A DNA stretch of 64,000 nucleotides from Cellulomonas sp. Y8 (lineage in GTDB: Bacteria; Actinomycetota; Actinomycetes; Actinomycetales; Cellulomonadaceae): assembly GCF_008033115.1 (NCBI RefSeq), contig NZ_CP041203.1, forward strand, positions 930,001 to 994,000, read 5' to 3'. The position numbers were made by a program, and so were the translations under genes. This document shows positions 21,577 to 62,083 of the stretch, piece after piece. Under the pieces are notes generated by a model, which had not been told where the DNA came from, did no database searches, and saw only the letters and a list, made by a program, of their open reading frames with translations. Numbering within the stretch: the stretch's first letter is position 1; the number at the start of each line of letters is the position of its first letter.

Positions 21577-21591
21577 GTGTAGCGGGGGGAT
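21577..21591. repeat. att-like core, outer left copy
   Basis: The sequence GTGTAGCGGGGGGAT repeats the 3' end of tRNA-fMet (GTAGCGGGGG on this strand) followed by the element-specific GATCAC. It marks the junction between chromosome and the small element. Confidence 0.7.
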
Positions 21592-21720
21592 CACCGGGGC
21601 GGGCGAGCGGCCTGGTGGACCGACCACGTCTTCGCTGCTCAGCGAATTGTGCCTGTGCATCTGCCCACCCCTCGTCATGGTCACGAGATCATCGGAGCAG
21701 GCACGCAGGACACCGATCAT
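21591..21720. repeat. left-arm repeat, copy 1
   Basis: About 130 bases running inward from the att core are clearly similar (roughly 70% by eye) to 28718-28850. Shared blocks include GCCTGTGCATCTGC and GCAGGCACGC. The repeat likely holds integrase arm-binding sites. Confidence 0.65.
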
Positions 21721-21734
21721 TCCTGGACTCGCAG

Positions 21735-22490
21735 AGCGAGTCCGGGGTCCACTGAAGCCAGCGTTGGCTCCGAGTGCACGAGCAACGCCGTGGGTGACGA
21801 GTGGCGCCGCGAAGCTGGATCCCGACCCAGTCGTCAGCAGCCGGTCTCGACTTCGGCCCTCCGCGCCCAGCACCCCCGAGGACGCCTTCGACTGAGGAGC
21901 GGAGCTGACCCCGGTGCTCATCAGATGCCCGCCCGGCGTCACGAGCTCCGGCTTGATCATGTTCGCCGCCCCCGGTCCACGACGCGTCAATGGCGAGGGC
22001 GCATTCGCCGAACCGAACGGCAGCACGTCGACGGAGTCCTTCGCCTCTCGCACCCCTCGTCCCTCGTCGGCCCCGAGCGCGCCCACCGTCAAGGACAGTG
22101 CGCTCGTCGCCGAGTCAAGAGGCCCCGCGTCGTCTCCCCCGAGAAGTCGATCGGTGAACTTCTCGGCGCCTGCATCGCTGTCGTACACACCTGGGAACAT
22201 GTCGCCCGTACTCATCACCACGACGATGCCGTGCTCACGCACGAACGAATCGACCGTTGCAGCCAGCGGCGTCGGCCCGGTCGCCAGGTACGGGCGCCTC
22301 GAGTCTCCCAGCGAGAGGTTCACGACGCGCGCCCCTGCAGCGACGGCGGTCTCGAGTGCCCAGATCCGCTCGTTCTCCCAGCGCTCGTCATCCGGGAAGT
22401 TCGCGTCGTCATCCAGAACTCGCACGCTCAGCGGTCGACCAGCAAGCCGCACCGGTGTCCGGCGCTGAGCGACCACGCCTTCGAGCGAGC
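21735..22490 (-). pseudogene. subtilisin-like protease fragment (S8)
   Basis: An open stretch encoding the middle and the serine half of an S8 subtilase: a strand ending VRVLDDDANFPDD, the helix region ARVVNLSLGDS, and the catalytic-serine motif GSGSSFAAPLVTHGVA. The part carrying the catalytic Asp and His is missing upstream, where the frame holds unrelated residues and no start. The C-terminus is replaced by element left-arm sequence after about 21745. The fragment cannot be an active protease. Such long-insert bacterial subtilases often pair with an ATPase in defence-type loci, but no partner is present. Confidence 0.7.
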
Positions 22491-22773
22491 CGCGCCCGCG
22501 CGCCTGGCCCATCTGCCGTGCCGTCGCGGCACATCGACGGGCGAGCCCGGCTCGACATCCGCGCCGGGTGCGGCATTCGTCGCGACCGGCTACTCGTCTC
22601 GTGGGTCCGCCAGATGCCGGGTCCGCTCGGGAGTGTGATTCTTGACCCAACCGTCGTCAGCCGGCTCGACTCCCGGCGGTCGCACCCCCGGACGCATCCG
22701 GCGGGGGGTGCGCGCGCAGGCGGATGAGAACGACCACGTGCCGCAGAGATCCCGATCCGAGGACGCCCCTTCG

Positions 22774-23127
22774 ATGACGCTCACGGCTTTCCTCCTCGAG
22801 CGCATCGCCGAGAGCGAGGCTGCCGCCCGTCGTCAGTTGCAGGGCGGCGGTCACGGCGGACCCCGCCATGGAGCGGGTCGGACGGACGACGCCGTCTACC
22901 GCAGGGATCCCGCGGACCCGGTGCGCGTCCTGGCCGAATGCCGCGTCCGGCGGGAGCTGATCGTCCTCGCGGACGAGGCGACGGGCCTCGACGAGACCGT
23001 GGACATGGAGCGCGAGGCCGGTTCGCGGCACGACAGCGGCGTGCACTACGTCGGTGACCGGATCCTGCGCGCCATGGCGTCGCTGTACGAGGGGCACCCC
23101 GACTTTCGACCGACCTGGCGGGCCTGA
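22774..23127 (+). CDS. DUF6221 family protein
   Basis: A 117-residue protein with the typical DUF6221 layout: start MTLTAFLLERIAESEAAA, a central PVRVLAECRVRRELIVL helix, and a C-terminal SLYEGHPDFRPTWR. Members occur widely in actinobacterial phages and integrated elements; no activity is known. Start ATG 22774 matches the family N-terminus; the ribosome binding site is weak. The insertion of Gly/His/Arg-rich residues at 28-40 is not conserved. Its presence supports a mobile origin for this segment. Confidence 0.75.
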   Translation: MTLTAFLLERIAESEAAARRQLQGGGHGGPRHGAGRTDDAVYRRDPADPVRVLAECRVRRELIVLADEATGLDETVDMEREAGSRHDSGVHYVGDRILRAMASLYEGHPDFRPTWRA

Positions 23128-23486
23128 GCGGCAGGCCGTGCTCGCCCTCACGTCGACGTCATGGTCGTGGTCGGCGCGCCGCTAGGACGAGTATCAACCA
23201 GGTGAGAGGACTCGTCTCACCGTGCGATGCGGTGTGTCCGCACGTCAGGCGCTACATCGAGGACGCGCCGATGGCGTCGGGGCCGGTGCCCGGTCATGAC
23301 GTTGCACCAGGTCAGCAACCAGTTCTCTCATCAACTGCGAGTTTCTCGCGTCGAGTCGGCGCCTTCATGGAACCCGGGGCGGTTCACGCCCTGTCTCGGC
23401 GAGGCGCGGTGATCAGCGCAGACCCCGATCCCGGGGCGATGGCGCCGAGCGGCGGCCCGGGGCCTGGAGGCGTACGCTCGGAGTAA
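23128..23486. other. intergenic, no supported gene
   Basis: About 360 bases without a convincing frame. It contains a short inverted repeat GGTGAGAGGACTCGTCTCACC at 23200-23220, which could be an operator or hairpin. Confidence 0.5.
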
Positions 23487-23558
23487 CCCGGTGTCGAGGA
23501 CCTCTGAGTGAGGCGACGACCCGGATCCAGCATCGGAGGGCGTCATGCCCGTCCAGCC
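23487..23558. repeat. 72-bp inverted repeat, left copy
   Basis: Identical in inverted orientation to 27699-27770 except one base (G at 23506). It covers the promoter region, ribosome binding site (GGAGGG) and first codons (ATGCCCGTCCAG) of the LapA gene here and of its paralogue at the other end. Confidence 0.85.
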
Positions 23559-23901
23559 AGTCTCCCGCTCTCGCCCGCAGCATGGCCGTGAGCCGGTGCT
23601 GCCCGAGATCCGCGACCCCCAGGACGACGTGCGTCAGCGCGGCTCGGGCACCCGGACGAGCGCCGCGTGGTTCGGCATCACGGTCGGGGTCCTCATCATG
23701 ATCGCGCTGGTCGTGTTCATGCTGCAGAACACCGAATCCGTGACGGTGTCCTTCCTCGGCATGATGGGCGCGGCTCCGCTGGCCGCGATCCTGCTGATCG
23801 CGGCGTTGGGGGCGGCCCTGGTGGTCCTGCTCGTCGGCGGCCTGCGGATCGGGCAGCTGCGCCGCCGTCTGCGCAACAGCGAGCAGCGTCTCGCGCTCTG
23901 A
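23545..23901 (+). CDS. LapA-domain membrane protein (copy 1)
   Basis: A 118-residue protein with a hydrophilic N-terminus and a LapA (DUF1049) domain: two transmembrane helices (about 40-62 and 77-99) separated by VQNTESVTVSFLG-like residues, with a basic tail GQLRRRLR. LapA-domain proteins are small inner-membrane proteins, some acting in lipopolysaccharide assembly in Gram-negatives; the role in actinobacteria is unknown. ATG 23545 follows GGAGGG. It leads a probable operon with the next unknown gene and the desaturase, which hints at a membrane-lipid role. A paralogue in inverted orientation is at 27353-27712. Confidence 0.82.
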   Translation: MPVQPVSRSRPQHGREPVLPEIRDPQDDVRQRGSGTRTSAAWFGITVGVLIMIALVVFMLQNTESVTVSFLGMMGAAPLAAILLIAALGAALVVLLVGGLRIGQLRRRLRNSEQRLAL

Positions 23902-23955
23902 GCACGTCGGCGACGCCGTGCGTTCGCCGCCCACCCACCGGACCGAGGTCCTGCC

Positions 23956-24420
23956 ATGACCGCACTCTCGCCCGTCTCCTCCACCTCCCGGACCGACAAC
24001 ACCGCGGGTGACTTCCTGCGTGTGGTGTCCGTGCTCGAGTCCGGCCTCCCTGTTGAGCTCGGCACGGCCGCCCAGCCCGCCTCGTACACGGTCCCGCTGA
24101 TCTTCTCGCGCCGCGTGAGCCCGCACGAACGTCAGCACATCGAGGATCCGTGGACCGCGGCCAGCATCGCCGAGGAGTGCGGCGGGGGCCCTGGCCTGCA
24201 CCTGGTCGTGTCTGACCGGCGTCTGCTCGTCGAGGGCACCACGCTCGAGCAGCTCCGCGACGGGCTGGCCCGTGCGCTGAACGACATGCTCCAGGAGCTG
24301 GGGCGGGAGCTGCGCAGAGTCGGTGACGAACGTGCGGCGGCCGCCGAGGTGCATGTACAGGATGAACGCCGCCGCACCGCCACGGTGCATGCCGCGGTGT
24401 CGGCGATCACGTTCGAGTAG
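23956..24420 (+). CDS. unknown protein, paralogue of 26919-27356
   Basis: A 154-residue soluble protein I do not recognise. It aligns with the 145-residue protein at 26919-27356: shared features include SYTVPLIFSRRVS against QYTVPAVFSRQVS, VVSDRRLLVEGTTLEQLRDGLA against QVSDRRLLIGRTSLEQLEDGLA, and the final ITFE/IVFE. Each copy directly follows a LapA gene, so the two families belong together. The C-terminal third is probably coiled coil. The start ATG 23956 lies 54 bases after the LapA stop; the desaturase starts 6 bases after this gene ends. Confidence 0.75.
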   Translation: MTALSPVSSTSRTDNTAGDFLRVVSVLESGLPVELGTAAQPASYTVPLIFSRRVSPHERQHIEDPWTAASIAEECGGGPGLHLVVSDRRLLVEGTTLEQLRDGLARALNDMLQELGRELRRVGDERAAAAEVHVQDERRRTATVHAAVSAITFE

Positions 24421-24426
24421 GGCCCC

Positions 24427-25524
24427 GTGGACACCCGCACGTCAGCCCCGACCGGGAGGGCGCCGGTCCGGCCGGCACGGGAGCGGCAGGTCAGCGAGTT
24501 CACCGACCTGAGCCGCCAGGTGCAGGAGTCCGGTCTCATGCGCCGCCGCCACGGGTACTACTGGACGCAGTTCCTGGTGCTCACCGCCCTGCTGGTGGCC
24601 ACGGTCGTGACGTTCGTCGCCGTGGGCCCCTCGTGGTGGCAGCTGGTCACCGCCGCTGTCCTGGCCGCGGTGCTGGGGCAGGTGATGTTCCTGGGGCACG
24701 ACGCCGCCCACCGCCAGATCTTCGAGTCGGGGCGCTGGAACGACTGGTCGAGCCTGATCATCGCGAACCTGTACGCGGGGATGAGCTACGGCTGGTGGCA
24801 GCACAAGCACTCCCGTCATCACGCCAAGCCGAACCAGGTCGGCGCGGACCCCGACATCGCGACCGACGTCATCGTGTTCCACACCGAGGACCTGCCGGCG
24901 GCTCGCACCGGCCTCACGGGGTGGCTGACCCGGCGCCAGGGCTGGTTGTTCTTCCCCGTCCTGCTGCTCGAGGGCCTGAACCTGCACGTGTCCGGCGTGA
25001 AGACGATCTTCGGTCGCGGGCCGGTCAAGCGCCGCCCCGTGGAGATCGTGCTCATCACGCTCCGCCTGGGCGGGTACCTCGCGCTGGTGTTCTGGATGCT
25101 GCCGGTCGGGATGGCGTTCGCGTTCCTGGGCGTGCAGCTGGGGCTGTTCGGCCTGTACATGGGGGCCGTGTTCGCCCCCAACCACAAAGGTATGCCGCTG
25201 GTCCCGCGGGACGTGCGGATCGACTTCCTGCGCCGGCAGGTGCTCATGAGCCGCAACATCCGCGGCAACCGGGTCATCGACACGTTCATGGGCGGCCTGA
25301 ACTACCAGATCGAGCACCACCTGTTCCCCAGCATGCCGCGTCCGAACCTGCGCCGGCTGCAGCCGACCGTGCGCGCGTTCTGCGCCGCGCACGGCATCGC
25401 GTACACCGAGACCAGCCTGCACCGGTCCTACGGCATCGTCATCCGCCACCTCAACAAGGTCGGGCTCGCCGCCACCGACCCCTTCCAATGCCCGCTGGCT
25501 GCGCAGTACCGCTCGTCGCGGTGA
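24427..25524 (+). CDS. membrane fatty acid desaturase
   Basis: A 365-residue integral membrane di-iron desaturase. The three histidine boxes are present: GHDAAHR (near 91), HKHSRHH (126-132) and QIEHH (His297-298). Four to six hydrophobic helices alternate with them as the family requires. It resembles actinobacterial acyl-CoA/acyl-lipid desaturases (DesA3-like), which introduce double bonds with electrons from a ferredoxin-type partner; none is encoded nearby. GTG 24427 starts 6 bases after the previous gene, so it is probably cotranscribed with the LapA and unknown genes. Its location inside a mobile element is unusual. Confidence 0.9.
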   Translation: MDTRTSAPTGRAPVRPARERQVSEFTDLSRQVQESGLMRRRHGYYWTQFLVLTALLVATVVTFVAVGPSWWQLVTAAVLAAVLGQVMFLGHDAAHRQIFESGRWNDWSSLIIANLYAGMSYGWWQHKHSRHHAKPNQVGADPDIATDVIVFHTEDLPAARTGLTGWLTRRQGWLFFPVLLLEGLNLHVSGVKTIFGRGPVKRRPVEIVLITLRLGGYLALVFWMLPVGMAFAFLGVQLGLFGLYMGAVFAPNHKGMPLVPRDVRIDFLRRQVLMSRNIRGNRVIDTFMGGLNYQIEHHLFPSMPRPNLRRLQPTVRAFCAAHGIAYTETSLHRSYGIVIRHLNKVGLAATDPFQCPLAAQYRSSR

Positions 25525-25592
25525 CCCACCTCGCCTGACAACCCCTGGTCGATCCAACGCCTGGCCCTCAGGGTCGGAGAGGACCCAGCACC

Positions 25593-25820
25593 ATGAGCGC
25601 TACCACGCCTGTGCCGCACCCCGCACGCCGCGACGGATCGTCGGACGCGGTACCCGCGCCCTCGGCGAGCCCGGGAGCGAACCTCGACGACATCAACCCG
25701 TCCTACGACTCCCCGACCGATGCCGACCGCGACGCCGACGGCCCCGGTACACCTGGCGAGCCGCCGACCAGCCCCGGGCCCGACCCGGACGACATCAACA
25801 CGTCGCCCCGTACCGAGTGA
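25593..25820 (+). CDS. small acidic protein with DDIN repeats
   Basis: A 75-residue Pro/Asp/Ser-rich protein preceded by GGAGAGGA at 25575-25582. Two copies of a short motif, SPGANLDDINPS and SPGPDPDDINTS, are separated by an Asp-rich spacer. It is predicted to be disordered with no membrane segment. I recognise no family. It follows the desaturase by about 70 bases and may share its transcript. Confidence 0.55.
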   Translation: MSATTPVPHPARRDGSSDAVPAPSASPGANLDDINPSYDSPTDADRDADGPGTPGEPPTSPGPDPDDINTSPRTE

Positions 25821-26249
25821 CGAGCGGTCCACCTCGCCCGGACGGCCGGGGTCAGGTCTGCAGGAGCCGCGTCGTCGGTGCCGGGGGTGGAACGGGTCCG
25901 GCGCGCGCGTCCGGCCTCCCGACATGCACGGAGCGCACGAGGGCCGCTACGGGGCCCGTGGAACAGCGCGTGGGTGTTACTCAGCCGCGCATGCGGCGCC
26001 GGCTCGCGGCTCGACGCCCCGCCCTGCGCGTGCGGGGCCGCCGCGACGATTGCTGAACCACCACCGCGTCGCCCCGAGCTTGGTGGCCCGGAGGGACTTC
26101 ATCTGCTGCGAGCTACTACGGGGGCCCGATGTCCAGCTCGACCACGCCAGCAAGGCCGCAGCAGCCGCTCAGGTCCGTCCCGAGTGCGTCGGTCACCGTC
26201 CCGTGGGGAGCGTGACGCGCACGGCGAAACTCGATGAGGATGGTGTGAA
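25821..26249. other. intergenic, no supported gene
   Basis: About 430 bases in which the open frames have no homologous look, start or codon pattern. No hairpin of note. Confidence 0.5.
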
Positions 26250-26591
26250 GTGCCCACGATGCAGGAGCCAGGCTGGCGTGACTACACCGCCGACCACACG
26301 TACTGGACGGGTCGTCAGCGAGGTGAGTACGTCGAGGTCGTCCGCCTCCACAGCGGGACGTTCGCGGAGGAGGAGATCTGGGGGTCGTACCGCAGCACCG
26401 GCGCAGCAGTCGGAGCAGCAGCACAGCTCGCCTACCTGCAGGGCAAGGCCGACGCAGAGCGGGAGCTCAAGACCCGCCTGCACGAGGTGCTCGACTCGAT
26501 CGGCCTCGGTGCGCTGCCGGTGGTTGCACCCGATCTGACGCCTCACGAGACGGCGCAGCTCCCTGCTGACGACCTCGGATCCGGGCGCTGA
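26250..26591 (+). CDS. small hypothetical protein
   Basis: A 113-residue soluble protein starting at GTG 26250 (or ATG 26259), with GAGGATG about 10 bases upstream. The N-terminal half is aromatic-rich (YTADHTYWTGRQRGEYVEVV); the second half looks helical (LAYLQGKADAERELKTRLHEVLDSIG). No family recognised. It stands alone between non-coding stretches. Confidence 0.5.
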   Translation: MPTMQEPGWRDYTADHTYWTGRQRGEYVEVVRLHSGTFAEEEIWGSYRSTGAAVGAAAQLAYLQGKADAERELKTRLHEVLDSIGLGALPVVAPDLTPHETAQLPADDLGSGR

Positions 26592-26918
26592 GGCCCGCCG
26601 ACGCGCGGTGACAGCCGAAAGTCCCCCCGAGCCACGCACCTCGTGGCCTGTTGCGTCGGGCTGACGCGGCGGGATGGGGAGGCTCGCGGGTACGCCCGAG
26701 ATCACCCGCGCCGCGCTTCGCCGCGGTCGGTGACTCGAACCACCGCTGCGCCCGGGCTACTCGTCGCAACTTGATACGTCTCTGTACCAGTCGAGCTCGC
26801 CCGCGGACCCCCTGCGCCCGCGGACGAGCCGAGCAGCGTGCGCTGTGGCGCGGCCGCCGGCCGCCGGCGCCTCGGATCGAACGGGCTCGACCCGGATCGC
26901 GCCGTCGAACGGCGACGC
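26592..26918. other. intergenic, no supported gene
   Basis: About 330 bases downstream of two convergent genes. No gene or clear terminator is visible. Confidence 0.45.
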
Positions 26919-27356
26919 TTACTCGAAGACGATGCGGTCCACCGACCGCTGCACGTCGACCGCGCGGTCCGCCTCCACGGACTGACGCGCGGTCGCTGCG
27001 GCCGCTCGCTCGTCGCGCTCACGGGCGACGGCGCGCCCGATGTCGGTCAGCGTCAGCGCGATCTCGTGCGCGAGCCCGTCCTCGAGTTGCTCGAGGCTGG
27101 TGCGGCCGATGAGCAGGCGCCTGTCCGAGACCTGCAGCGTCACCTGCGGGTAGCCGCGCTCGGTGAGCCGGCGGACGGTCTCCGGTCCCTCGATCGCGGT
27201 CTTCTCGGGCACGGACACCTGGCGGGAGAACACGGCCGGGACCGTGTACTGCGTCGGCGCCTGGCTCGTTCCGAGCAGCGCAGGCAGGGCGCTGGTCAGG
27301 ATCGACGCGAGCCGGAGCGGCTGCTCGCTGGTGGCGAGCTCGCCGTAGGCGGTCAC
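26919..27356 (-). CDS. unknown protein, paralogue of 23956-24420
   Basis: A 145-residue protein of the same unrecognised family as 23956-24420 (see shared VSDRRLL and SLEQLEDGL motifs). The C-terminal part is charged and helical and ends DRIVFE. GTG 27356 overlaps the stop of the upstream LapA gene (GTGA), so the pair is translationally coupled. That tight coupling here, and the same order at the other copy, indicates that LapA and this protein act together, probably at the membrane. Confidence 0.75.
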   Translation of the reverse strand: MTAYGELATSEQPLRLASILTSALPALLGTSQAPTQYTVPAVFSRQVSVPEKTAIEGPETVRRLTERGYPQVTLQVSDRRLLIGRTSLEQLEDGLAHEIALTLTDIGRAVARERDERAAAATARQSVEADRAVDVQRSVDRIVFE

Positions 27357-27712
27357 CGTCGTGCTCCGGTCGGGTGGCCGCTGGCGGAACGGCGGCGGAG
27401 CTGGCCGATGCGCAAAGAGGCGAACACCAGGACCACGATGCCCACGCCGAGGCCTGCGATGAGCAGCGTCAGGGCAAGCGGAGCTGTCCCGGTCATGCCG
27501 AGGAAGGAGACCGCGACGGGGCCGGTGTTCTGCACCATGAACACGACGAGCGCGGCCAGGACCAGGACGCCGACGCAGATGCCGAACCATGCGGCGCTCG
27601 TGCGGGTTCCCGACGCCCGGGTGGGTTCGCTGGGGCGAGGTGCCCGGACCGTGGGCTCGAGGGGCTGCCGGCTGCGGGCGGGTGTGGAGTGGGAAGCAGG
27701 CTGGACGGGCAT
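27353..27712 (-). CDS. LapA-domain membrane protein (copy 2)
   Basis: A 119-residue paralogue of 23545-23901: same MPVQP start, SGTRTSAAWFGI before helix 1, VQNTGPVAVSFLGM between the helices, and SLRIGQLRRR at the end of helix 2. The N-terminal region before the first helix has diverged, while the 72 bases around the start codon are almost identical in both copies. The gene leads a two-gene operon with the unknown protein. Confidence 0.82.
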   Translation of the reverse strand: MPVQPASHSTPARSRQPLEPTVRAPRPSEPTRASGTRTSAAWFGICVGVLVLAALVVFMVQNTGPVAVSFLGMTGTAPLALTLLIAGLGVGIVVLVFASLRIGQLRRRSASGHPTGARR

Positions 27713-27770
27713 GACGCCCTCCGATGCTGGATCCGGGTCGTCGCCTCACTGAGAGGTCCTCGACACCGGG
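27699..27770. repeat. 72-bp inverted repeat, right copy
   Basis: Inverted copy of 23487-23558 with one mismatch. The two copies face each other across 4.1 kb, so recombination between them would invert the desaturase segment. Confidence 0.85.
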
Positions 27771-27774
27771 CTGA

Positions 27775-28179
27775 TCAACAGTCTACGCCCGCAGACTCGG
27801 TTCTGACCTCCCGGTTCCCAGCCCGGTGCCCGGGTCTGCGGCGTTGGGTCGGCCGTCTGGACAGACCCGGAAGGGGCGGGAGGGTCTGCTGCACGAGTAG
27901 GTGACACCCATGTGTGGTGCCGGTAGGCGCCGCTGGATGGATGTGCCCCGTGCCCGGCTCGCTGACCTGCGGCTCGAGGACCGACTCGGAGATCTTGCCG
28001 AGATCGATGAGGTCGCCGAGCTGCAGCAGCACCTTGCCGTTCTCACCCGAGCGCGTCCGCAGCGCGTTGTCCCGCTGCAGCCGGCGCACGGTGTCCTCCG
28101 TGCGACCCATCAACCCGGCGATCTCGTCCCGGGTCAGCCACTCGTCGCGGTTCAGCCCGCGGATGGTGGTGCTCGACAT
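27775..28179 (-). pseudogene. truncated HTH (Xis-like) gene
   Basis: The first 73 residues match the intact HTH gene at 61074-61481 almost exactly (MSSTTIRGLNRDEWLTRDE, then DTVRRLQRDNALRTRSGENG). After the codon near 27960 the similarity ends abruptly and the frame runs 60 more codons of Pro/Arg-rich, non-homologous sequence. The coiled-coil C-terminus and the adjacent integrase are gone. It marks a deletion end point in the smaller element. Confidence 0.75.
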
Positions 28180-28644
28180 GGCGTCAGTCCCTCGTGCGGC
28201 GGCCCCACTGGCCGCGTTCGCAGGGCGACCGTGAGTCGTACGCAGAACCCCGCAATGTCCGCACGCGCCGGACCTCCCCCTCGGTCCCGGCACACCCGTC
28301 GTCGCACTGCCCGTGCGACAACCGCACAGCCGAGCCAACGGACCCCTGTTGGTACGCGCGGCCGCCCCGCCGACGAGAGGCGTGAAGCCTCCACCTTCGG
28401 ACCGGCTCGCCTCCAGCCAGAGCCAGCGCACGGCGATCAGGCTCAACGGCTCGCCCTCGGTGCACACCCGGTGCGCAACCGGAGCGCGACCGGCCCACGG
28501 CTGACCCGCAGGTGAAGCCAGGGGTGGCAGTGGGTGGGCACCGCGACCGTGCCCAGGCACCTGGTGTGCAGCTGCACAGGCCGCAATTGCGGGGTCAGAC
28601 CCCAGATCCCCGGCCCACGGTGCGTCGAACCCGCGTGAAAACGC

Positions 28645-28678
28645 CGAAGGCCCCCAGGGAGATCCCTGGGGGCCTTCG
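28645..28678 (-). terminator. terminator-like hairpin, copy 1
   Basis: A perfect 16-bp stem (28645-28660 and 28663-28678). Read on the minus strand it is followed by a short T-rich stretch. The same hairpin lies next to tRNA-fMet at 61947-61980. Confidence 0.75.
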
Positions 28679-28703
28679 CCCAAACCTGCGCTGGCAGGTC
28701 TGC

Positions 28704-28717
28704 GTTGTAGCGGGGGG
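28704..28717. repeat. att-like core, middle copy
   Basis: GTTGTAGCGGGGGG repeats the 3' end of tRNA-fMet. To its left it matches the tRNA-proximal flank (62000-62018), and to its right it matches the inner side of the outer core at 21587. It is therefore the junction between the two elements. Confidence 0.75.
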
Positions 28718-28850
28718 ATCACGAGGGCTTGCGAGCGACCTGGCGGCCATTCGGCGTTCTCGCTGATCAAGGCGTCATGCCTGTGCATCTGCACACCCGT
28801 TACGGTCATGGATCCATCGAAGCAGGCACGCGGGACACCGATCACACGGC
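28718..28850. repeat. left-arm repeat, copy 2
   Basis: Matches 21591-21720 (about 70% by eye), ending with the shared block GACACCGATCA. Probably the left arm of the larger element. Confidence 0.65.
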
Positions 28851-29052
28851 CAGCGCCTCGACGGCTACCGCCAGGCCCAGACATTGCGAGCCCAGGCAAT
28901 GCGGCTGTGAGACGACTTCCTCTCGAGTTCACGCGGCCTAGCACCCGAGCCAAGGGCCCCGAGGCGGCTGGCGCGCTGGCTCCGCAGCCTGCGCCCGGCA
29001 CCACCGCACCAAACCGACCGGGGCCGGGACGCCGCCGTCCTACGCTCGACGC

Positions 29053-29310
29053 ATGCGCACCGTCACCGCTACCCGCGCGGCCCGGCACCTGTCCGGTCTG
29101 CTGGACGCAGTCGCGCGCGGCGAGACGTTCACGATCACCCGGTCGGGCCGGGTGGTCGCGGAGCTTCGGCCCGCCGGAGCTGCGCCGACGGCCGGAGCGC
29201 TCCGGCGGGCGTTGGCCGGGCTCCCGCCGCTGGACGACCAACTCGAAGCGGACATCGGCTCGGCGACGCGGCTGCTGACGTCGCAGGTGAGCCAGCAACC
29301 CGACCGCTGA
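29053..29310 (+). CDS. Phd/YefM-type antitoxin
   Basis: An 85-residue protein with the Phd/YefM N-terminal DNA-binding fold: TATRAARHLSGLLDAVARGETFTITRSGRVVAELRPA reads as the family pattern in sequence order. The C-terminal tail, which normally wraps the toxin, is present, but no PIN, Doc or RelE toxin follows; the next gene is convergent. It may be a solitary antitoxin. A -10 box TACGCT lies 6 bases before the ATG, so the mRNA is probably leaderless. Confidence 0.75.
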   Translation: MRTVTATRAARHLSGLLDAVARGETFTITRSGRVVAELRPAGAAPTAGALRRALAGLPPLDDQLEADIGSATRLLTSQVSQQPDR

Positions 29311-29406
29311 TCCGCCAACACGCGGAACTCGCCCCAACCGACGCCAGGCGATCAGGCCGGCCGCGTCAGCGGCCGTGCTGAGTGAGGCGCCCCGGGAAGC
29401 TGGCGT

Positions 29407-31826: not shown

Positions 31827-31878
31827 GCTTATAAATCGCACGTTAGGCGTCTTATTCTCGGCTTATGAACGGTCCCGC

Positions 31879-52409: not shown

Positions 52410-52416
52410 CGGCGGC

Positions 52417-55900: not shown

Positions 55901-56291
55901 GGTCGTTGTTCGTCGGGAGACCAAAGTCCAGGAACCTGAGCGTCTCGATCTGTTGCTCGCCGCGGTCGTCCGTCCACTCGGCCCGGTAACCGTCACGGAG
56001 GAGTTCGTGCACCTCTCGGTTGGCACGCACCCGGTCCATGACCGTACGGTCCTTCGTCAGGGCCTCGATAGCCTCGTTGATCGCCGCGTCAGGGACGTGC
56101 TCGGGGTTGAGCTTGCGCATCGCGAACCGCAGCCGGTGAGTGAGCACGACGTCGTGCTGCGAGTCACGACCGACCGTTCCTTCCGGCCCGAGGACCTCGT
56201 GGAACGCGTCAACCGGCGCCCAGCCGAGCTGTTCCAGCAACTCCATGCTCGGCTTCTCCACGTACAGGTACTCCGCCCCCGTCGGCACCAT
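52968..56291 (-). CDS. hsdR: type I restriction enzyme, HsdR (motor and nuclease)
   Basis: A 1107-residue restriction subunit. The N-terminal PD-(D/E)xK nuclease has Asp149, Glu163 and Lys165 (LDVALFV then VMEFKEP). The SF2 translocase follows: Walker A QGSGKS at 301-306, DEAH at 406-409, then GFTGTP and later helicase motifs around PRMRNHTLMQTIARANR-type residues near 670. A long helical C-terminus serves for complex assembly. ATG 56291 shares a base with the HsdS stop, so the two are coupled. All key residues are present. With HsdS and a methylase it would cut DNA after translocation; no methylase gene is adjacent. Confidence 0.93.
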   Translation of the reverse strand: MVPTGAEYLYVEKPSMELLEQLGWAPVDAFHEVLGPEGTVGRDSQHDVVLTHRLRFAMRKLNPEHVPDAAINEAIEALTKDRTVMDRVRANREVHELLRDGYRAEWTDDRGEQQIETLRFLDFGLPTNNDLLAVQQMWVKGNLHSRRLDVALFVNGIPLVVMEFKEPNESVKSAYDNNLTDYRDTIPKLFIPNCFVLLSNGSQAKVGSTYAPWEFFNDWLVIDAHGARGAVALETALRGTCDPAVLLDLLENFMAYMERPGGLIKVMARSHQYLGVNAAIDNLHRARAEQDTRLGVFWHTQGSGKSLSMLWFTQKVLRQVPGKWTFVMVTDRTELDTQLHGEFADAGAISPEARVHAQSVAHLRELLAADHRYVFTLIQKFQPSKALGERQMPVLSNRSDVIVITDEAHRSQYDTLALNMRTALPHASMMGFTGTPLIAGEEQATREQFGDYVSVYNFRDAIEDGATVPLYYENRIPELQLVNENFSDELNALLEEAELDEDAEGQLARAFGTQYTLLTRPERLKTIAKDLVAHFVGRGFSGKAMYVGLDKAAAVRMYNLVREAWAEHLDELRAEHDALPELERPWLASRIELMETTDMAVVVSQSQNELKMLDDLGLDIRPHRERMNREDLAEKFKDPDDPLRLVFVCAMWMTGFDAPSVSTVYLDRPMRNHTLMQTIARANRVFPEKDNGLIVDYVGVFRNLEKALAIYGAANAGESPIEIIDALAGELDAAVAAVFDFCSGVGVDLAAMRDAEGFDHVAKRDAAVEALLVDEETRTDFQQKARQARKLFKALLPDPRAAAQQGNVAAIRVIAERVAEVTRPPEADIGAVADAVDALLDRSVGAEEYVIRAAAEGTKPDPLIDLSQIDFEGLAARFAGRERAETDRLAQLLRQQAIGAAVRNPTRYELVERIEQLIDDYNAGSVNIDEYLRRLVELSQTLTKEEERCAREGLTEEELAIFDLLTQPEPVLTDDERETVKASAKKLLERLHDKLVQDWRRKVDVKNDVDSTIRRILDQGLPETPYTVEIFTSKVQLVMDHVLTAYGDNGESAYDGRVDVQFSQGPPVELAGPIDVNRIADDVVARIHSDPVFARHVAQQLVSSGDV

Positions 56292-57541
56292 CACGCCACC
56301 GCACCCTCAACCAGCGTCCCGAGGTTGAGCGCCGACACGTCGATCTGCCCGGTCACCAGCTTCGGCAGCAAGAGGTCGCGGAGCGCGGTCAACCGACGAT
56401 TCTCAAACATCAGCGTCTCGGCCAGCCCGAGTTGGTCTCGCGCCATCCTAGTGAAAGCCGCGGACAGTCTCTCCGGGGGAACGGCGACCGGCCACTGACC
56501 GAGCACCTTCCAGTCGGCACGCGGCATCTTCGTCCCGTTGGAGGTTTGGGTGGCGTGAGCGACGAACTCAACGCTTGACGTCAGCATGACGACTTGGCCC
56601 CAGTGTGGTTCCAGCGGTCGGATGACGATCGCGTCGGTCGAGCTGATGCCATCTATCGGCGCGACGCTGACTTTGTGGAAGTAGGGCCTGATCTTCCCGA
56701 ACAGCACGTCGCCCTTCGTGAACACTGCCTTGCGGCTGCCCTGGTCCCCCGCTCTACCCCAGGCATCGAGGGTGATCTGCCCTCTGGGGATGTGCTCCAG
56801 TCCCACTGCGGCTATACCCGGATCGAGGGTAGACGGATCAACTGTGTCCTTGACGATGCGCACAAGGTCGTCAACGTTGCCCCACTCCCACCCCTCAGGG
56901 ATCGGGCCGATGGCGGAGTCGACCAGGGGCACGTCGCCGCGGCCGGGGTAGCGGAACTTCACGAACCACTCGCGGTAGATCGCCCGCGCCACCTCCTCCA
57001 GCACCTCAACCCGGCGCCGGTTGTTCTCGATCAGGTCGTCGAAGTGCTTGAGCACCTTCGCGATCCGCCGTTGTGTGTCGACGGCAGGGACCTCGATCTC
57101 CAACGCGGAGAGGTTGCCCCCAGTGATGCCCGACACAGCCGTGCGAGCCGCGATCGAGGCCATGCGAGCTCGACCCTGCGGCGATTTGAAGTAGTAGAAG
57201 AGGAATCGAGAGTCCGCCCGCTCGGGATTGGGACGCGCACGAATCATCGAAGACTCGAATGTCAGCGCTTCAGGCGGATCAACGACGATCGAGCACTTTC
57301 CTGCTCCTGCCAGGACGAAGGAGCGTCGGGCAAACAGGAGGTCGCCGTCGCGAAGCTCCGACTTCTTCCACTCGGTCGGCGTCAGTTCGATGCGGGAGTC
57401 GGGTTGGTCCGAGAGGGTGTCGAATGCGAACAACTCCTTCATGTTAACGAGCCGCACCCCGGAGCCGTGAAACTCCTTTGGCTTGTAGACGCCGTTTCGT
57501 ACCGGCTCGGCGAGCAGATCCTGGAACTGCACTCGGCTCAT
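56291..57541 (-). CDS. hsdS: type I restriction specificity subunit, HsdS
   Basis: A 416-residue DNA-recognition subunit with two target-recognition domains, each followed by a conserved helical spacer: the first spacer is DTQRRIAKVLKHFDDLIENNRRRVEVLEEVARAIY (about 180-215), the second near 370-395 (LMFENRRLTALRDLLLPKL). Recognition of a two-part site is the family function. ATG 57541 gives the usual length. HsdM normally precedes hsdS with a short overlap; here 187 non-coding bases and an unrelated gene lie upstream. Confidence 0.92.
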   Translation of the reverse strand: MSRVQFQDLLAEPVRNGVYKPKEFHGSGVRLVNMKELFAFDTLSDQPDSRIELTPTEWKKSELRDGDLLFARRSFVLAGAGKCSIVVDPPEALTFESSMIRARPNPERADSRFLFYYFKSPQGRARMASIAARTAVSGITGGNLSALEIEVPAVDTQRRIAKVLKHFDDLIENNRRRVEVLEEVARAIYREWFVKFRYPGRGDVPLVDSAIGPIPEGWEWGNVDDLVRIVKDTVDPSTLDPGIAAVGLEHIPRGQITLDAWGRAGDQGSRKAVFTKGDVLFGKIRPYFHKVSVAPIDGISSTDAIVIRPLEPHWGQVVMLTSSVEFVAHATQTSNGTKMPRADWKVLGQWPVAVPPERLSAAFTRMARDQLGLAETLMFENRRLTALRDLLLPKLVTGQIDVSALNLGTLVEGAVA

Positions 57542-57728
57542 GCGTCGAGAATCCCTTGAACAGCGCCACAGCGAGGCCGGACCCGGCATCAGCGCCTGCA
57601 CTCGCCACGACGGCCGACTCGCTGCGAGGAGCCTGCCCTCAACGTCGCGGGCACGCGCAAGGACCTGACCCTCGAGAGCTCGCACAGTCGTATGCCCCGT
57701 CCGCTTGCGTCACCGACGCGCGACGCCG

Positions 57729-58568
57729 TCAGTCGTCCGGATCACCGATCTCCGCGGCGAGGGTGCTCTTCGCCTGAACGACCTCGGCTGCCTCCCACTG
57801 AGCGTCCAGGAACGTCCGCACAGCGTCGGCCCCCGGCTCAGGCACAGGCGCGATCGTCGTGAAGTGCTTGTGCAGCCCGTTCAGGGACGCGCCGATCGTC
57901 GACACCGCTCCGTCCTCGGCCATGAGGTACCGGTCGTGCTGTGCCCTGGGGGGCAGGCACCGAACCTCAAGAGCACGTCCTTGGGCTTCAGCCGCGCCCA
58001 CGATCAGCTCGAGCACCGTCCGGTCCGATGCTGCGCGACATAGCAGCACCCGGTCGATGGATGTCGCGTCCATCAGCCACGGGAACAGGTCGTCCTTGAA
58101 GTACGGGTCGACGAGCATCCCGGCTTTGGCAGCCGCGACCGCACCGGTGAGCGTGACCAGGTTGAGCGGGTTCTCCGGGGAGAGGATGACCAGACCCTCC
58201 GGCGCATCAGGCGCCTCGGGCGCGGCCTGCTCGTGGGCGCTGACGATCGCTCGGCCGGCTTCGGTCAGCCATAGGGACGAGCCGTCCGCCCAGCCTACTG
58301 AGCGGAGGTACCCCCCGTATTGACGGCTCTGCATCAGGAGCCGCTCGATGCCGCTCGACAAAGACGTCGCGCCGAGAATCGGGATCTCGCCAGGAGGTGT
58401 CAGTGCGAGCCAAGCGTCAAGGTGCGCATCCGCGACCCCCGACCCGCCATCGTTCAGCATCCCGACGTATCGCAGAGCGCGTACGAGGTCGCTGGGTATG
58501 AGATCACCGATCACGCAGACAACGTATCGATCAGAGGCGGCTCCGGTTATCTCGATGGCGTCTCTCAT
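57729..58568 (-). CDS. PLD-like domain protein
   Basis: A 279-residue protein. The N-terminal half is helical and may be a winged helix (SSGIERLLMQSRQYGGYLR, then LWLTEAGRAIV). The C-terminal half resembles a phospholipase D-like nuclease module with one HxK-type variant: HDRYLMAEDGAVSTIGASLNG. A single such motif would require a dimer for catalysis. ATG 58568 is chosen. Its position where hsdM would be expected, between the restriction genes and the integrase, is notable, but it has no methylase motif. Confidence 0.65.
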   Translation of the reverse strand: MRDAIEITGAASDRYVVCVIGDLIPSDLVRALRYVGMLNDGGSGVADAHLDAWLALTPPGEIPILGATSLSSGIERLLMQSRQYGGYLRSVGWADGSSLWLTEAGRAIVSAHEQAAPEAPDAPEGLVILSPENPLNLVTLTGAVAAAKAGMLVDPYFKDDLFPWLMDATSIDRVLLCRAASDRTVLELIVGAAEAQGRALEVRCLPPRAQHDRYLMAEDGAVSTIGASLNGLHKHFTTIAPVPEPGADAVRTFLDAQWEAAEVVQAKSTLAAEIGDPDD

Positions 58569-58746
58569 CTGCGTCGCCCACGGCAACGCCTGTCGTCGGC
58601 GATCCGGCGTCGGGGCTGCACATCGGCACTGGCGATCGAGGGACGGAGCAGGTCCCCACGTCTTGCGCCGGGTTCGTGCGTGCTCTCGTCGGCTCGCGGG
58701 ATGTCTGGGCGTGCGCATCCCGCCGGCCTTCACGCCACATGCCACG

Positions 58747-61077
58747 TCATGCCGCGACCGCCGCTCGGCCGAGTTCGCGCACCACGGTGTTGGACAGACC
58801 CCTGCTGCCGGCGTACTCGAGAAGCGAGGTCATGCCGACATGCTGACGGCGGTTGATCGTCGTGGCCGTCAGCCACCCGAGCCCGATCAGGTCGGACATC
58901 TGATAGCGGGTCAGACCGAGCGCCCGCCTCGCGTCGTGCAACGGCACGAACCGCTCGTCTCGGCCGCCACGCACCCGCTTCATGCGCCGGGAGTGCTCGG
59001 CCACCGAGGACACGGTGACATGCCGACGCCGAGTACCCCGCGGGTCGTCTGCGAGCACCAGATCTCCGGAACGCACGAGCTTCTCCACCTGACCCACGGG
59101 AAGTCCGAGCTGGTCTGCGGCGGCCTGGAGATCGACGACATCCCGGGATGCTTCCCGCACCCGATCCATCTCCACCTCGACCTTGGCCACGGCTTCCGGG
59201 CCGAGCCGGATCGTGGTCCCCTTCTCCCTGCTCGTCGAAAGCACGCCGAGCCGCAGGCACAGGTCGCGTGCCTGGTGGTAGTTCAGCCCGATCCGCGCGG
59301 CGACGTCGTGCAGCGACGAGCCACTCCTCGCCTCCAGGTACACCCGCAGATCGCGCTCGTCCACCCGCCACGTCTGGGCCCCAGACACCAGCACCTTCGC
59401 GCCGCGGATAGCACCGCTCTGCAGCATCCGACGGACCTCGGCCTCGTGCTTGCCGACGGCCTCGGCGACCTGGCGGGTACTCAGTAGGACCGCGTCTGCT
59501 TCGACGCCCTCCGACGCAGCGAACCACCCGCGCGCGGCCATCCGTGCCAGCAGCGCCTCACGCTGGCGCCCGAGCACCGTGTCCCTCCCCCACCCCTCCC
59601 GCTTGTCCGTCGGCACGATGAGCGCGCTGATGCCTGCGGCCGCCAGCAGGTCAGCCATCGCGTCGGTCGCAGGGGTCTGCAGCTCGACTGGGACACCGTC
59701 GTCGTAGCCGGCGTGCACAGTCCGCTTCTGCTCGCCGTGCCCGACGTAGTACTCCCCGAGCCGATCGTCGACCCCGGCGTTGCGGTGGTCCGTGATCACG
59801 AACCCACGCATGTCATGCGGCACCGACTTCACAAGCCCCGCCGCCGCCTGCGCGCCGTCGAGCGCCGACCGGAAGGACGACATGCCGGAGGCCTGGTCCT
59901 TCCCCAGGCCCGGGATCAGACGGTTCTCGGCGAGCACCACCCCGTCCCGGGTGTGGAACACCTCGATCACCTCGTGCAGCAGACTCGCGAGCAGCTTCGG
60001 CACCCGGATGGTGCGCATGGACTGCTCAGTCTTCGTGCCCTCCTTGTACGGCTGGTAGACGAACCGGCCGGTGTCGCCGTCGCGCACGAGCTTCCACTCC
60101 CCGCCCTGCTTCTCGATGCGCAGCGCCCACGACCCGTCACTCACCTGGAAGAAGTCCTTGACCAGCAGACCGAACGCCTCGCCGATCCGCATGCCCGTCA
60201 GACGCAGCAGCCACAGAGTCAGCTGGTGGACCACGCTCAGGTGCCCCGCGACCAGACGGGCGGCGTGGACCGGCACGTACCCCGGGTCGATGCGTGGCTG
60301 TCGAGCCAGGTCCTTGCGGGCGGGCGTGAGGGCGTTCAGCCGCGTGTAGTTGCCGCGTATTGCCACCCCGTGGTCGTGCGCACGGAGCATCGCCTGCTTC
60401 AGCACGAACAGGACGTTCTTCGCCGACTCGCGCTTCATCCCGTGGGGCTTCTCCGGCTCGACGAGCAACCCGGCTGCTCGCAGCTCAGCAGCCTGGACGA
60501 GGATGGGTCCACGGCCCTGCTTTCGAGCCACGACTTTCCCCTCGGCGCAGGCGTCGCTGACTGCCTTCAGCCCACCATGGCTGACCTCGCCGGCCTCCTG
60601 CATCGTGAGCCAGACGCACGTGACCGCCGCGCGCTTGAGGACGTCGCCTGCGACGGTCGCGGCCGGCAGCTCGCGCTTGCCCGCCAGCGTCAGCGCAAGC
60701 GCCTGGGCCTGCGCGAAGGTCAGGTCCTCCACCGTGCGCCTGTCGGCGGGAGCGGCGAGAGCGGTCTCGATGAGGTGGGGAAGCACGTAGCGGCGCGTGT
60801 ACGAGATCAGACTCTCGGCTCGTTCCCCGTCCGTGCGGGCGTGCGTCCCCTCGTACTCGATGAACCAGTCCAGGGCCAACTGCGCCGCCGTCGCCCGCGA
60901 GACGTCCGCGTCCAGGTCGAGCACCTGCTCGCCGGCGTTCGCCAAAGCGACGAGGTCGACGTCCTCCTCGCTCACGCGAACCGGCTCAAGTGCGACCAGC
61001 GCGAACAACGGCGAAGTCGACGACGTCTCGGACACAGCGCCCGCGGCGCTCTTCACCAGGCGCAGCGACGCACTCAC
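58747..61077 (-). CDS. tyrosine integrase with C-terminal HTH array
   Basis: A 776-residue site-specific recombinase. The catalytic domain (about 265-470) has Arg297 (TGMRIGEAFG), His421 and Arg424 (HDMRG), His447 (VGHGEQ) and the nucleophile Tyr458 (HAGYDDG). The N-terminal 260 residues include a SAM-like core-binding region. The last 245 residues hold four excisionase-like winged-helix modules in tandem (about 531-582, 587-637, 648-695, 710-757), each with a short turn and an Arg-rich wing. That extension is unusual for an integrase. GTG 61077 overlaps the stop of the HTH gene upstream. It lies next to its probable target, tRNA-fMet. Confidence 0.88.
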   Translation of the reverse strand: MSASLRLVKSAAGAVSETSSTSPLFALVALEPVRVSEEDVDLVALANAGEQVLDLDADVSRATAAQLALDWFIEYEGTHARTDGERAESLISYTRRYVLPHLIETALAAPADRRTVEDLTFAQAQALALTLAGKRELPAATVAGDVLKRAAVTCVWLTMQEAGEVSHGGLKAVSDACAEGKVVARKQGRGPILVQAAELRAAGLLVEPEKPHGMKRESAKNVLFVLKQAMLRAHDHGVAIRGNYTRLNALTPARKDLARQPRIDPGYVPVHAARLVAGHLSVVHQLTLWLLRLTGMRIGEAFGLLVKDFFQVSDGSWALRIEKQGGEWKLVRDGDTGRFVYQPYKEGTKTEQSMRTIRVPKLLASLLHEVIEVFHTRDGVVLAENRLIPGLGKDQASGMSSFRSALDGAQAAAGLVKSVPHDMRGFVITDHRNAGVDDRLGEYYVGHGEQKRTVHAGYDDGVPVELQTPATDAMADLLAAAGISALIVPTDKREGWGRDTVLGRQREALLARMAARGWFAASEGVEADAVLLSTRQVAEAVGKHEAEVRRMLQSGAIRGAKVLVSGAQTWRVDERDLRVYLEARSGSSLHDVAARIGLNYHQARDLCLRLGVLSTSREKGTTIRLGPEAVAKVEVEMDRVREASRDVVDLQAAADQLGLPVGQVEKLVRSGDLVLADDPRGTRRRHVTVSSVAEHSRRMKRVRGGRDERFVPLHDARRALGLTRYQMSDLIGLGWLTATTINRRQHVGMTSLLEYAGSRGLSNTVVRELGRAAVAA

Positions 61078-61481
61078 GCCGGCACCTCCGCCGCCTGCTG
61101 CGACCTCAGGACGGAGACCAGGGTGTTGAGCGTCGCGATGTGCGCAAGCAGCTCGGACACCCGCTCCTCGTAACCGGCGAGACGCCCGGCGAGCTCGCAC
61201 CGCTCCTCGCGCACGTCCTGCAGCTCCCGCCGCACCGCGACGGCGTCAGCGACCTCGCGCGCGCTGACCTGCGGGTCGAGGACCGACTCGGAGATTTTGC
61301 CAAGATCGATGAGGTCCCCGAGCCGCAGCAGTACCTTGCCGTTCTCACCCGAGCGCGTACGCAGCGCGTTGTCCCGCTGCAGCCGGCGCACGGTGTCCTC
61401 CGTGCGACCCATCAACCCGGCGATCTCGTCCCGGGTGAGCCACTCGTCGCGGTTCAGCCCACGAATGGTCGTGCTCGACAT
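61074..61481 (-). CDS. HTH protein, probable recombination directionality factor
   Basis: A 135-residue protein. The N-terminal 45 residues form an HTH (RDEWLTRDEIAGLMGRTEDTVRRLQRD), followed by GKVLLRLGDLIDLGKI and a coiled-coil C-terminus (VRRELQDVREERCELAGRL). Its stop overlaps the integrase start, so they are coupled. Small HTH proteins in this position usually act as excisionases or regulators of the integrase. A truncated copy sits at 27775-28179 beside the middle att core. Confidence 0.8.
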   Translation of the reverse strand: MSSTTIRGLNRDEWLTRDEIAGLMGRTEDTVRRLQRDNALRTRSGENGKVLLRLGDLIDLGKISESVLDPQVSAREVADAVAVRRELQDVREERCELAGRLAGYEERVSELLAHIATLNTLVSVLRSQQAAEVPA

Positions 61482-61946
61482 GGCGTCGGTCCTTCGTGCG
61501 GCGGCCCGACTGGCCGCGTTCGCAGGGCGACCGTGGGTCGTACGTCGAACCACGCAATGTCCGCACGCGCCGGACCTCCCCCTCTGTCTCGGCACACCCG
61601 TCGCCTCACAGCCCGTGCGACAACCGCACAGCCGAGCCAACGGACGCCTTCCGGAACGCGCGGCCGCCCCGCCGACGAGAGGCGCGACGACACCACCCGC
61701 GGACCGGCTCTCCTCAACCCCGAGCCAGCGCACGGCGATCAGATCCAACGGCTCGCGCTCGATGCGCACCCAGTAACCAGCCAAAGCGCGACCGGCCCAC
61801 GGCTGACCCGCAGGTGAAGTCAGCGGTGGCAGCGGGTGGGCACCGCCACCGTGCCCAGGCACCCGGTGTGCAGCTGCACAGGCCGCAGTCGCGGGCTCAG
61901 ACCCCAGATCCTCGGCCCACGGTGCGTCGAACCGGCGCGAAAACGG

Positions 61947-61980
61947 CGAAGGCCCCCAGGGAGATCCCTGGGGGCCTTCG
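61947..61980 (-). terminator. terminator downstream of tRNA-fMet
   Basis: A perfect 16-bp stem with a 2-base centre (61947-61962 and 61965-61980). Read in the direction of tRNA-fMet transcription it is followed by CGCCGTTTTCGC. The element therefore supplies the terminator of the tRNA gene it occupies. Confidence 0.8.
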
Positions 61981-62005
61981 GCCAAACCTGCGCTCGCAGG
62001 TCTGC

Positions 62006-62018
62006 GTTGTAGCGGGGG
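62006..62018. repeat. att-like core, tRNA copy
   Basis: GTTGTAGCGGGGG lies across the 3' end of tRNA-fMet (acceptor strand and position 73) and two flanking bases. The same core occurs at 28704 and, with one change on the left, at 21577. Confidence 0.75.
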
Positions 62019-62083
62019 CAGGATTTGAACCTGCGACCTCTGGGTTATGAGCCCAGCGAGCTACCGAGCTGCTCCACCCCGCG
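62010..62083 (-). tRNA. initiator tRNA-fMet (CAT)
   Basis: A 74-base tRNA gene without encoded CCA. The anticodon CAT sits in the loop CTCATAA, flanked by the initiator-type three G-C pairs (GGG and CCC). The first pair of the acceptor stem is mismatched (C1 with T72), the initiator hallmark. The TTCAAAT T-loop is intact. The sequence closely resembles actinobacterial initiator tRNAs. It is the integration site of both elements, and the element end restores its 3' terminus. Confidence 0.97.

Follow-up and report, generated by a model that had tools for sequence, protein, structure and literature searches.

What occupies the DNA beside the tRNA-fMet gene of Cellulomonas sp. Y8, a single island or two mobile elements in tandem, and could the smaller, integrase-less part be moved by the integrase of its neighbor? 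The locus was analyzed within a window of 64,000 nt, the whole stretch of DNA studied here, and all coordinates are positions in that window. It is probable that two elements belonging to a single att family have integrated and accreted at the 3' end of the genome's sole tRNA-fMet gene, and that the smaller, element 1, is of the CIME type.

Cores and attachment arms at tRNA-fMet

The core of the site is the 11-mer TGTAGCGGGGG, which has three exact matches in the window and no fourth copy. With 0.02 matches expected and three found in none of 100 shuffles, a chance origin of the cores is rejected. An earlier note on this DNA had claimed three copies of the tRNA 3'-end core, bounding segments of 7.1 and 33.3 kb; the copies are confirmed, and their spacing measures 7,128 bp (cores 1 to 2) and 33,302 bp (cores 2 to 3). 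The outer cores, 1 and 3, delimit a composite of 40,430 bp, which agrees with the note's view that excision between them removes both elements, an event that is itself predicted from these boundaries. The target is a single-copy gene, as two other matches in the genome are just 73% and 76% identical to it.

20509..21513, + strand: GAPDH gene, left host flank
21578..28705: element 1, 7,128 bp, without integrase
21578..21588, + strand: core 1, left end of element 1, exact TGTAGCGGGGG; its flank matches that of the uninterrupted site in sister genomes
28643..28680: terminator-like hairpin adjoining core 2 (inverted pair I3; putative terminator)
28706..28716, + strand: core 2, junction of elements 1 and 2, exact TGTAGCGGGGG
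28706..62007: element 2, 33,302 bp, with integrase
61947..61980: terminator-like hairpin, a self-complementary stretch 27 bp from core 3; probably the end of the tRNA-fMet transcript
62008..62018, + strand: core 3, overlapping the tRNA-fMet 3' end, exact TGTAGCGGGGG
62009..62083, - strand: tRNA-fMet, target of integration, with no second copy in the genome
62341..63936, - strand: UPF0182 gene, right host flank

Each element is bounded by a left and a right arm, and the earlier note's matching left arms and same-family right arms are both found. The right arms are identical at 695 of 769 aligned columns, and the left arms are about 72% identical across 150 bp, with 76, 72, and 68% identity in the first three 50-column windows and 32-54% beyond. 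All four arms have in common a 19-bp site, GCCTGTGCAKCTGCNCACC, with four matches, every one of them exact, where 0.36 would be expected even with as many as 3 mismatches allowed. Together, the cores and matching arms bear out the note's two related elements in tandem. A profile search at E 1 found no further left ends inside element 2.

21578..21740, + strand: left arm of element 1 (11 left ends aligned; match to a profile built with this arm)
21651..21669, + strand: shared arm site GCCTGTGCAKCTGCNCACC, in the element 1 left arm
27957..28705: right arm of element 1, including the 5' part of the HTH gene (repeat D1 and alignment)
28563..28581, - strand: shared arm site, inverted, right arm of element 1
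28706..28853, + strand: left arm of element 2 (11 left ends aligned; match to a profile built with this arm)
28779..28797, + strand: shared arm site, in the element 2 left arm
61259..62007: right arm of element 2 (repeat D1 and alignment)
61865..61883, - strand: shared arm site, inverted, right arm of element 2

Gene content and the integrase

The smaller element had been described as lacking an integrase and retaining a truncated HTH gene. None of the genome's four Phage_integrase (PF00589) matches falls in element 1, and tblastn found no integrase remnant there (best E 2.0). The HTH gene keeps 73 codons of its element 2 counterpart, with 9 synonymous and 2 non-synonymous differences, and diverges past codon 73, which would fit a deletion. 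No Pfam family of transfer genes was found among the scanned ORFs of element 1, some of which match nothing. Element 1 has three attributes of a CIME: attL and attR (core and both arms) common to element 2, no integrase gene, and no recognized transfer genes.

21748..22380, - strand: subtilase-like fragment (PF00082 profile positions 95-262 of 288; the first 94 are absent)
22642..23127, + strand: DUF6221 protein
23545..23901, + strand: LapA-domain protein, paired with an inverted copy (27353-27712)
24427..25524, + strand: fatty acid desaturase (PF00487)
27353..27712, - strand: inverted LapA-like paralogue (its match lies under the Pfam cut-off)
27775..28179, - strand: truncated HTH gene (codons 1-73 match the element 2 gene)

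Element 2 has an integrase and att sites, as expected of an ICE or IME. Its Pfam-scanned ORFs include no relaxase or conjugation genes, but several of the large ones are without any match and may include a novel one. Phage structural or packaging genes were likewise not found (10 proteins by PHROGs, other ORFs by Pfam only); the PHROGs scan of the 10 proteins returned integration/excision families, one regulator, one weak DNA-binding match, and one family of unknown function. No relatives of the integrase were found in viral_contigs either, and a prophage origin has no support. The DNA at 37387-37882 is 69% identical to a remnant in genome G062.

34433..35626, + strand: PIN_8 protein
36967..37869, + strand: second excisionase-domain protein (TIGR01764 over cut-off)
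38059..40632, - strand: candidate defense ATPase PDC-S06 (PADLOC, 1e-154)
51291..52409, + strand: DUF4238 protein
52968..56294, - strand: type I restriction HsdR
56291..57685, - strand: type I specificity HsdS
58747..61077, - strand: tyrosine recombinase, 776 aa (PF00589, TIGR01764, alignment, model, fold matches, profile comparison)
61074..61481, - strand: small HTH gene upstream of the integrase (PHROG 2474, MerR-like, 6e-4; PHROG 1969, unknown function)

The two elements have no alignable cargo in common (ORFs of at least 100 codons, E 1e-8), so element 1 was not derived from this particular element 2. They do have a 26-bp repeat in common (27881-27906 and 35709-35734). It was considered and rejected as a possible insertion-sequence end; within 3 mismatches it occurs at just these two places in the genome.

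The element 2 integrase is unusual, as it joins a tyrosine recombinase and an excisionase-family domain in one chain, a feature absent from the earlier note. Xis is ordinarily a protein of its own, which sets the direction of recombination. PF00589 is over cut-off, and residues R297, H421, R424, H447, and Y458, which we take to be the catalytic residues (R, HxxR, H, Y), are invariant in all 11 aligned sequences, the query included. Behind the catalytic domain lies the excisionase-family domain (TIGR01764, residues 531-583, 29.4 bits against a cut-off of 28.8), and HTH_17 is also over cut-off. Four C-terminal HTH units are predicted by the model at 534-758, with wing strands clear in three; profile comparison of the units gave 86.6% for D1-D3, 96.3% for D3-D4, and only 7.2% for D1-D4, and the best link of the unit at 589-644 was 42.9%. 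Tyrosine recombinases made up all 50 of the matches listed in a fold search with the integrase model, with no wHTH protein among them, and neither the integrase alignment nor a 1,110-aa ORF has sequence relatives among solved structures at E 0.01. Of 18 loci with relatives of the integrase, 7 have the gene downstream of a tRNA (4 of them Met, 2 Tyr, and 1 Ala). Among the papers listed by searches of open-licence PMC literature, judged from titles and abstract openings, none was recognized as describing this integrase or these arrays, and passages of a paper describing simple and arm-binding recombinases mention no excisionase fusion (PMC8138268).

Empty sites and related segments in other genomes

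The earlier note had proposed comparing the locus in sister strains; the comparison here is between species, in a sample of one genome per species, of which 200 family genomes were searched. Three sister loci (L029, L033, and L034) have an uninterrupted site, where the window's left flank runs into an intact tRNA-fMet and the 21 bases before the core are identical to those of the window. A probe of the core plus GATC matched 7 of the 200 genomes at 10 places (reversed control, 0), and six genomes of the sample other than this one carry left ends of the family, which the earlier note had not reported. Left arms are recognizable in all 11 aligned left ends, the majority of which belong to segments that lack this integrase. 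With the core and GATC excluded, the nine foreign left arms were each matched or beaten by 1-8 of 2000 random pieces, which came from the same loci and may contain arms themselves. A plain DNA search of 81 genus genomes with the element 2 left arm gave clear matches just in its own genome and G062, because the other arms are too divergent for such a search.

The integrase itself occurs in 6 of the 200 genomes, three of which hold partial copies only, giving three full-length integrases against eight left-arm segments without one; four of the seven probe-positive genomes are without this integrase (E 1e-20). The eight segments are element 1, one each in G027, G034, G231, and G234 (contig C168), the G062 remnant, and two in G241. 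Both arms are present without an integrase in element 1, in G034 (5.8 kb, alone within the fetched part of its contig), and in G234 (2.9 kb, with a different tyrosine recombinase gene beyond its tRNA-side core, C168:298-852). Those of G231 and G027 and the two small ones of G241 end on the right in a host-like terminator, not the window's right arm. G241 repeats the layout seen here, with 4.1- and 2.6-kb segments lacking an integrase followed by a segment of about 32 kb that carries hth and an integrase fragment and adjoins tRNA-fMet.

Origin and possible movement of element 1

We propose that the element 2 Int would recombine the 11-bp core, aided by the left and right arms of both elements, and that element 1 is an integrase-less relative in which the core, the two arms, and the beginning of the HTH-int operon are retained. 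Element 1, or an intact ancestor, would have integrated first, a deletion would then have removed most of hth and int, and element 2 would have integrated last, at the att site on the tRNA side. Any two of the three cores should be usable by Int, which would release either element by itself or the 40.4-kb composite. Binding of Int to the arms and excision are both deduced from sequence features, and excision of element 1 in trans by the element 2 Int is plausible on the basis of the cores and arms. The arm-bearing sister segments without an integrase fit trans-mobilization and also fit repeated integrase loss in place; the partial integrases in three of six genomes indicate that loss by decay is common, needing no trans-mobilization, and the recombinase gene next to the G234 segment could have moved that segment.

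The main rival is that element 1 lost its integrase in place, no longer excises alone, and persists as baggage, which is a real possibility, though we give it less than an even chance. It is compatible with accretion and differs solely in whether element 1 still moves. The truncated HTH gene and partial subtilase of element 1, the frequency of partial integrases, and the remnant look of the G062 segment all speak for such decay, but the element 1 core is exact and its arms carry the same 19-bp site as those of element 2. The recognizable arms of all 11 left ends, mostly on integrase-less segments, also count against it, although they may be ancestral.

That the 40.4-kb composite arrived as one unit, in which only the outer cores count, seems unlikely. 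The outer cores are exact, and a precedent exists in Frankia, whose tandem pairs reportedly excise both one at a time and jointly (PMC3218068), but a lone two-arm segment is found in G034, a finding still compatible with joint movement here. We are similarly doubtful that homologous recombination between right arms, in place of the integrase, reshuffled the array and so produced the integrase-less segments. The likeness of the right arms noted above is enough for RecA-dependent exchange, but such exchange leaves unexplained the insertions, which join at the exact 11-bp core, and the left arms would be poor substrates. Less probable again is movement of element 1 by another tyrosine recombinase of the genome. 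Three further Phage_integrase matches exist, all far from this locus, and the G234 segment adjoins a different recombinase gene, but element 1 has the arm site and most of the right arm in common with element 2, making the element 2 integrase the first candidate. Finally, a single island whose middle core arose by chance or is a repeat derived from the host is highly improbable and is rejected, since no support for it was found and a right arm precedes and a left arm follows that core (arm match 28643-28853).

Accretion with an integrase-less partner resembles several known systems. The closest are the ICESt1-related CIMEs of Streptococcus thermophilus (PMC5704250), which likewise keep attL and attR without integration genes and have an integrase-bearing tandem partner on the target-gene side, in the same order as here. 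Host, integrase family, and cargo differ, and the scanned ORFs of element 2 include no recognized conjugation or mobilization gene, so its parent class could be either ICE or IME. The genomic islands at ssrA in Dehalococcoides also form arrays at one RNA gene, but the target is tmRNA and the integration proteins are DsiA and DsiB, which their authors compared with SCC (PMC3146451). In Frankia, Fean5518 and Fean5534 form an actinobacterial tandem at a tRNA gene and were found to excise alone as well as jointly, but both partners are AICEs encoding integrases (PMC3218068). PAISt of Streptomyces turgidiscabies has one internal and two flanking repeats and modular excision, comparable to the three repeats here, but uses an 8-bp palindrome at bacA and another integrase (PMC4057263). 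CALINs and other helper-dependent elements are integrase-less arrays relying on an integrase elsewhere, but use attC and integron integrases in place of a core and arms at a tRNA gene (PMC11389934). RdfS-type wHTH recombination directionality factors act with a tyrosine recombinase at attP, but RdfS is a separate, self-assembling protein, whereas the recombinase chain of element 2 itself contains an excisionase-family domain and, as modeled, four HTH units (PMC11963761).

A broader and unlikely reading is a cassette-like system, comparable to an integron but with tRNA att sites serving its cassettes. A rare integrase with its own excisionase-type domains would serve a pool of small segments, each with about one functional system and a conserved left arm, arrayed at the initiator tRNA and kept after integrase loss. 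Their cargoes would include a desaturase, GmrSD, an ADP-ribosylglycohydrolase, DUF6119, and glycan-use operons.

Tandem islands with an integrase-less partner are an already known kind, and it is the integrase that is unusual. The eight integrase-less segments and three full-length integrases form a set for direct tests of trans-mobilization, and a recombinase with a built-in excisionase-type domain prompts one to ask what controls the direction of recombination.

Cores, target tRNA and host flanks

The Cellulomonas sp. Y8 genome is a single contig of 4.48 Mb, and the window (its bases 930001-994000) contains three exact copies of an 11-base core, spaced 7,128 and 33,302 bp apart, which delimit two elements:

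21578-21588, 28706-28716 and 62008-62018: cores 1 to 3
21578..28705: element 1, without integrase
28706..62007: element 2, with integrase
27775..28179 (-): truncated HTH gene of element 1
61074..61481 (-): HTH gene of element 2, upstream of the integrase

Core 3 overlaps the 3' end of tRNA-fMet, a single-copy gene in this genome, on the minus strand. The G+C content is 76.3% in the left host flank, 70.8% in element 1 and 68.9% in element 2. In four sister loci (L027, L030, L032 and L033), tRNA-fMet comes directly after the GAPDH gene and the terminator of that gene, and in L029, L033 and L034 the last 21 bases before a tRNA-fMet are those of the window's left flank, followed by an intact tRNA. 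Of the 13 fetched loci with an intact tRNA-fMet, 12 have UPF0182 beyond that tRNA, and the window has the same arrangement.

Those four sister loci each contain a pair of tRNA-fMet genes, separated by about 1.9 kb, whereas this genome has one (window 21514-21588 and 62009-62083); the frame between the two in L033 resembles, by eye, an aldo/keto reductase. The window's left flank seems to combine parts of both upstream terminators, and this combination suggests a deletion.

Arms, integrase and cargo

The right arms of the two elements are identical in 695 of 769 alignment columns. The left arms share their first 150 bp, less closely than the right arms. Every arm contains the same 19-bp site, in direct orientation on the left side of each element and inverted on the right side. 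Over their first 73 codons, the two HTH genes differ by nine synonymous and two non-synonymous changes, and the genes are unrelated from codon 74 onward. Each of the eight aligned right ends has, as judged by eye, a hairpin near the core; because integration parts the tRNA from its own terminator, we infer that these hairpins probably replace it.

The element 2 integrase is a tyrosine recombinase of 776 aa whose start is overlapped by the upstream HTH gene (135 aa). At least 10 relatives were found among the best 8,000 candidates of 5.8 billion proteins, and a profile search returned the same 10. A relative is encoded in 18 of the 60 genome_contigs stretches that matched patterns (7 of the 18 with a tRNA upstream), in none of 23 viral_contigs stretches, and in 1 of 58 related genomes, namely this one. 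Residues 531-583 match the excisionase family (TIGR01764) above its curated cut-off. The structural model (11-row alignment, mean pLDDT 82.7, pTM 0.51, hence uncertain domain packing) has four HTH units at residues 534-758, and profile comparison supports the kinship of three of these C-terminal units. All 50 fold matches listed are tyrosine recombinases (best E 1.6e-4) that cover only part of the chain (TM-score by query 0.15-0.24), and the comparison speaks neither for nor against the HTH units of the model. The model also suggests an extra HTH-like unit at residues 153-201 (window 60475-60621), after the N-terminal helices and before the catalytic domain.

Alignment found nothing in common between the cargoes of the two elements. 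Pfam revealed no transfer genes in the selected ORFs scanned, and several large ORFs had no match at all. Element 2 encodes HsdR and HsdS (window 52968-57685); HsdM (PF02384) was not found in this genome at E 1e-3 by a search that was positive in 13 of 14 control genomes, and a divergent methylase may be present. An ORF of 1,110 aa (window 42803-46135) had no match in Pfam, PHROG, NCBIfam or PDB sequences, and its C-terminus weakly matches PDC-S48 in PADLOC (9.5e-6). Element 1 has two copies of a LapA-like gene together with the gene that follows it; the copies face each other (window 23487-24128 and 27205-27770), on both sides of the desaturase. A 26-bp repeat has one copy per element in inverted orientation (window 27881-27906 and 35709-35734), with no third copy in the genome within 3 mismatches.

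Left ends, segments and integrases in family genomes

The probe TGTAGCGGGGGGATC (core plus GATC) occurs at 10 places in 7 of 200 family genomes, and the reversed pattern, used as a control, in none of the 200; G241 has an additional left end with one core mismatch. With core and GATC left out, nine foreign left arms outscored, against the window's arms, almost every one of 2000 pieces drawn at random from those loci; 1 to 8 of the pieces, which may include the arms themselves, score as high. The likeness of the left arms may reflect continued use or common origin.

With the best five candidates per genome scored, the integrase profile matched in 6 of the 200 genomes at E 1e-20: this genome and G234 have the integrase at full length, G239 has it up to a contig end, and G115, G241 and G161 have part of it. 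Scoring of all candidates yielded nothing at E 1e-3 in G027, G062 and G231; in G034 it yielded one weak match (2.3e-4), on a different contig from the segment. Phage_integrase (PF00589) had no match within the segments of G034, G001, G062, G241, G231, G027 and contig C168 of G234. Several of the G-numbered assemblies are at draft stage, and in some places a segment stops where its contig stops. A natural integrase copy in G161 (L104, 2074-2808) consists of pieces 91-96% identical to the window's integrase, lacks the entire middle, catalytic domain included, and has a right arm 92-94% identical.

The 5.8-kb segment of G034 has both arms and retains 38-40 residues of the HTH gene; its cargo includes DUF6119 and DUF6932. 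The G241 array comprises a 4.1-kb segment (ADP-ribosylglycohydrolase), a 2.6-kb segment (GmrSD) and a stretch of about 32 kb leading to a right arm, HTH gene, integrase fragment and tRNA-fMet. The segments of G231 (8.5 kb) and G027 (7.6 kb) have a left arm, glycan-use genes and a host-like right end. In G062, a left arm is accompanied by a remnant that encodes a JetD C-terminal domain and includes DNA akin to that of element 2. In Actinotalea ferrariae (L047), a 3' fragment of tRNA-fMet adjoins the HTH-integrase pair, which suggests a position within an array.

A 9.1-kb insertion in G001 is missing from the sister genome G086, which is 98.2% identical to G001 over 5.8 kb. The insertion has the right arm, a 34-bp tRNA repeat and, by profile, no left arm; it may therefore be the work of another integrase. 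G234 has a 2.9-kb segment with both arms and, on a separate contig, an intact integrase. A different tyrosine recombinase lies directly beyond the small segment (C168:298-852), and another directly upstream of the HTH-integrase pair (C1:129601-130155). Since other tyrosine recombinase genes thus adjoin segments of the left-arm family (L091, from C168, 235-1356, and C1:129601-130155), the tRNA-fMet site may be shared by several integrase families.
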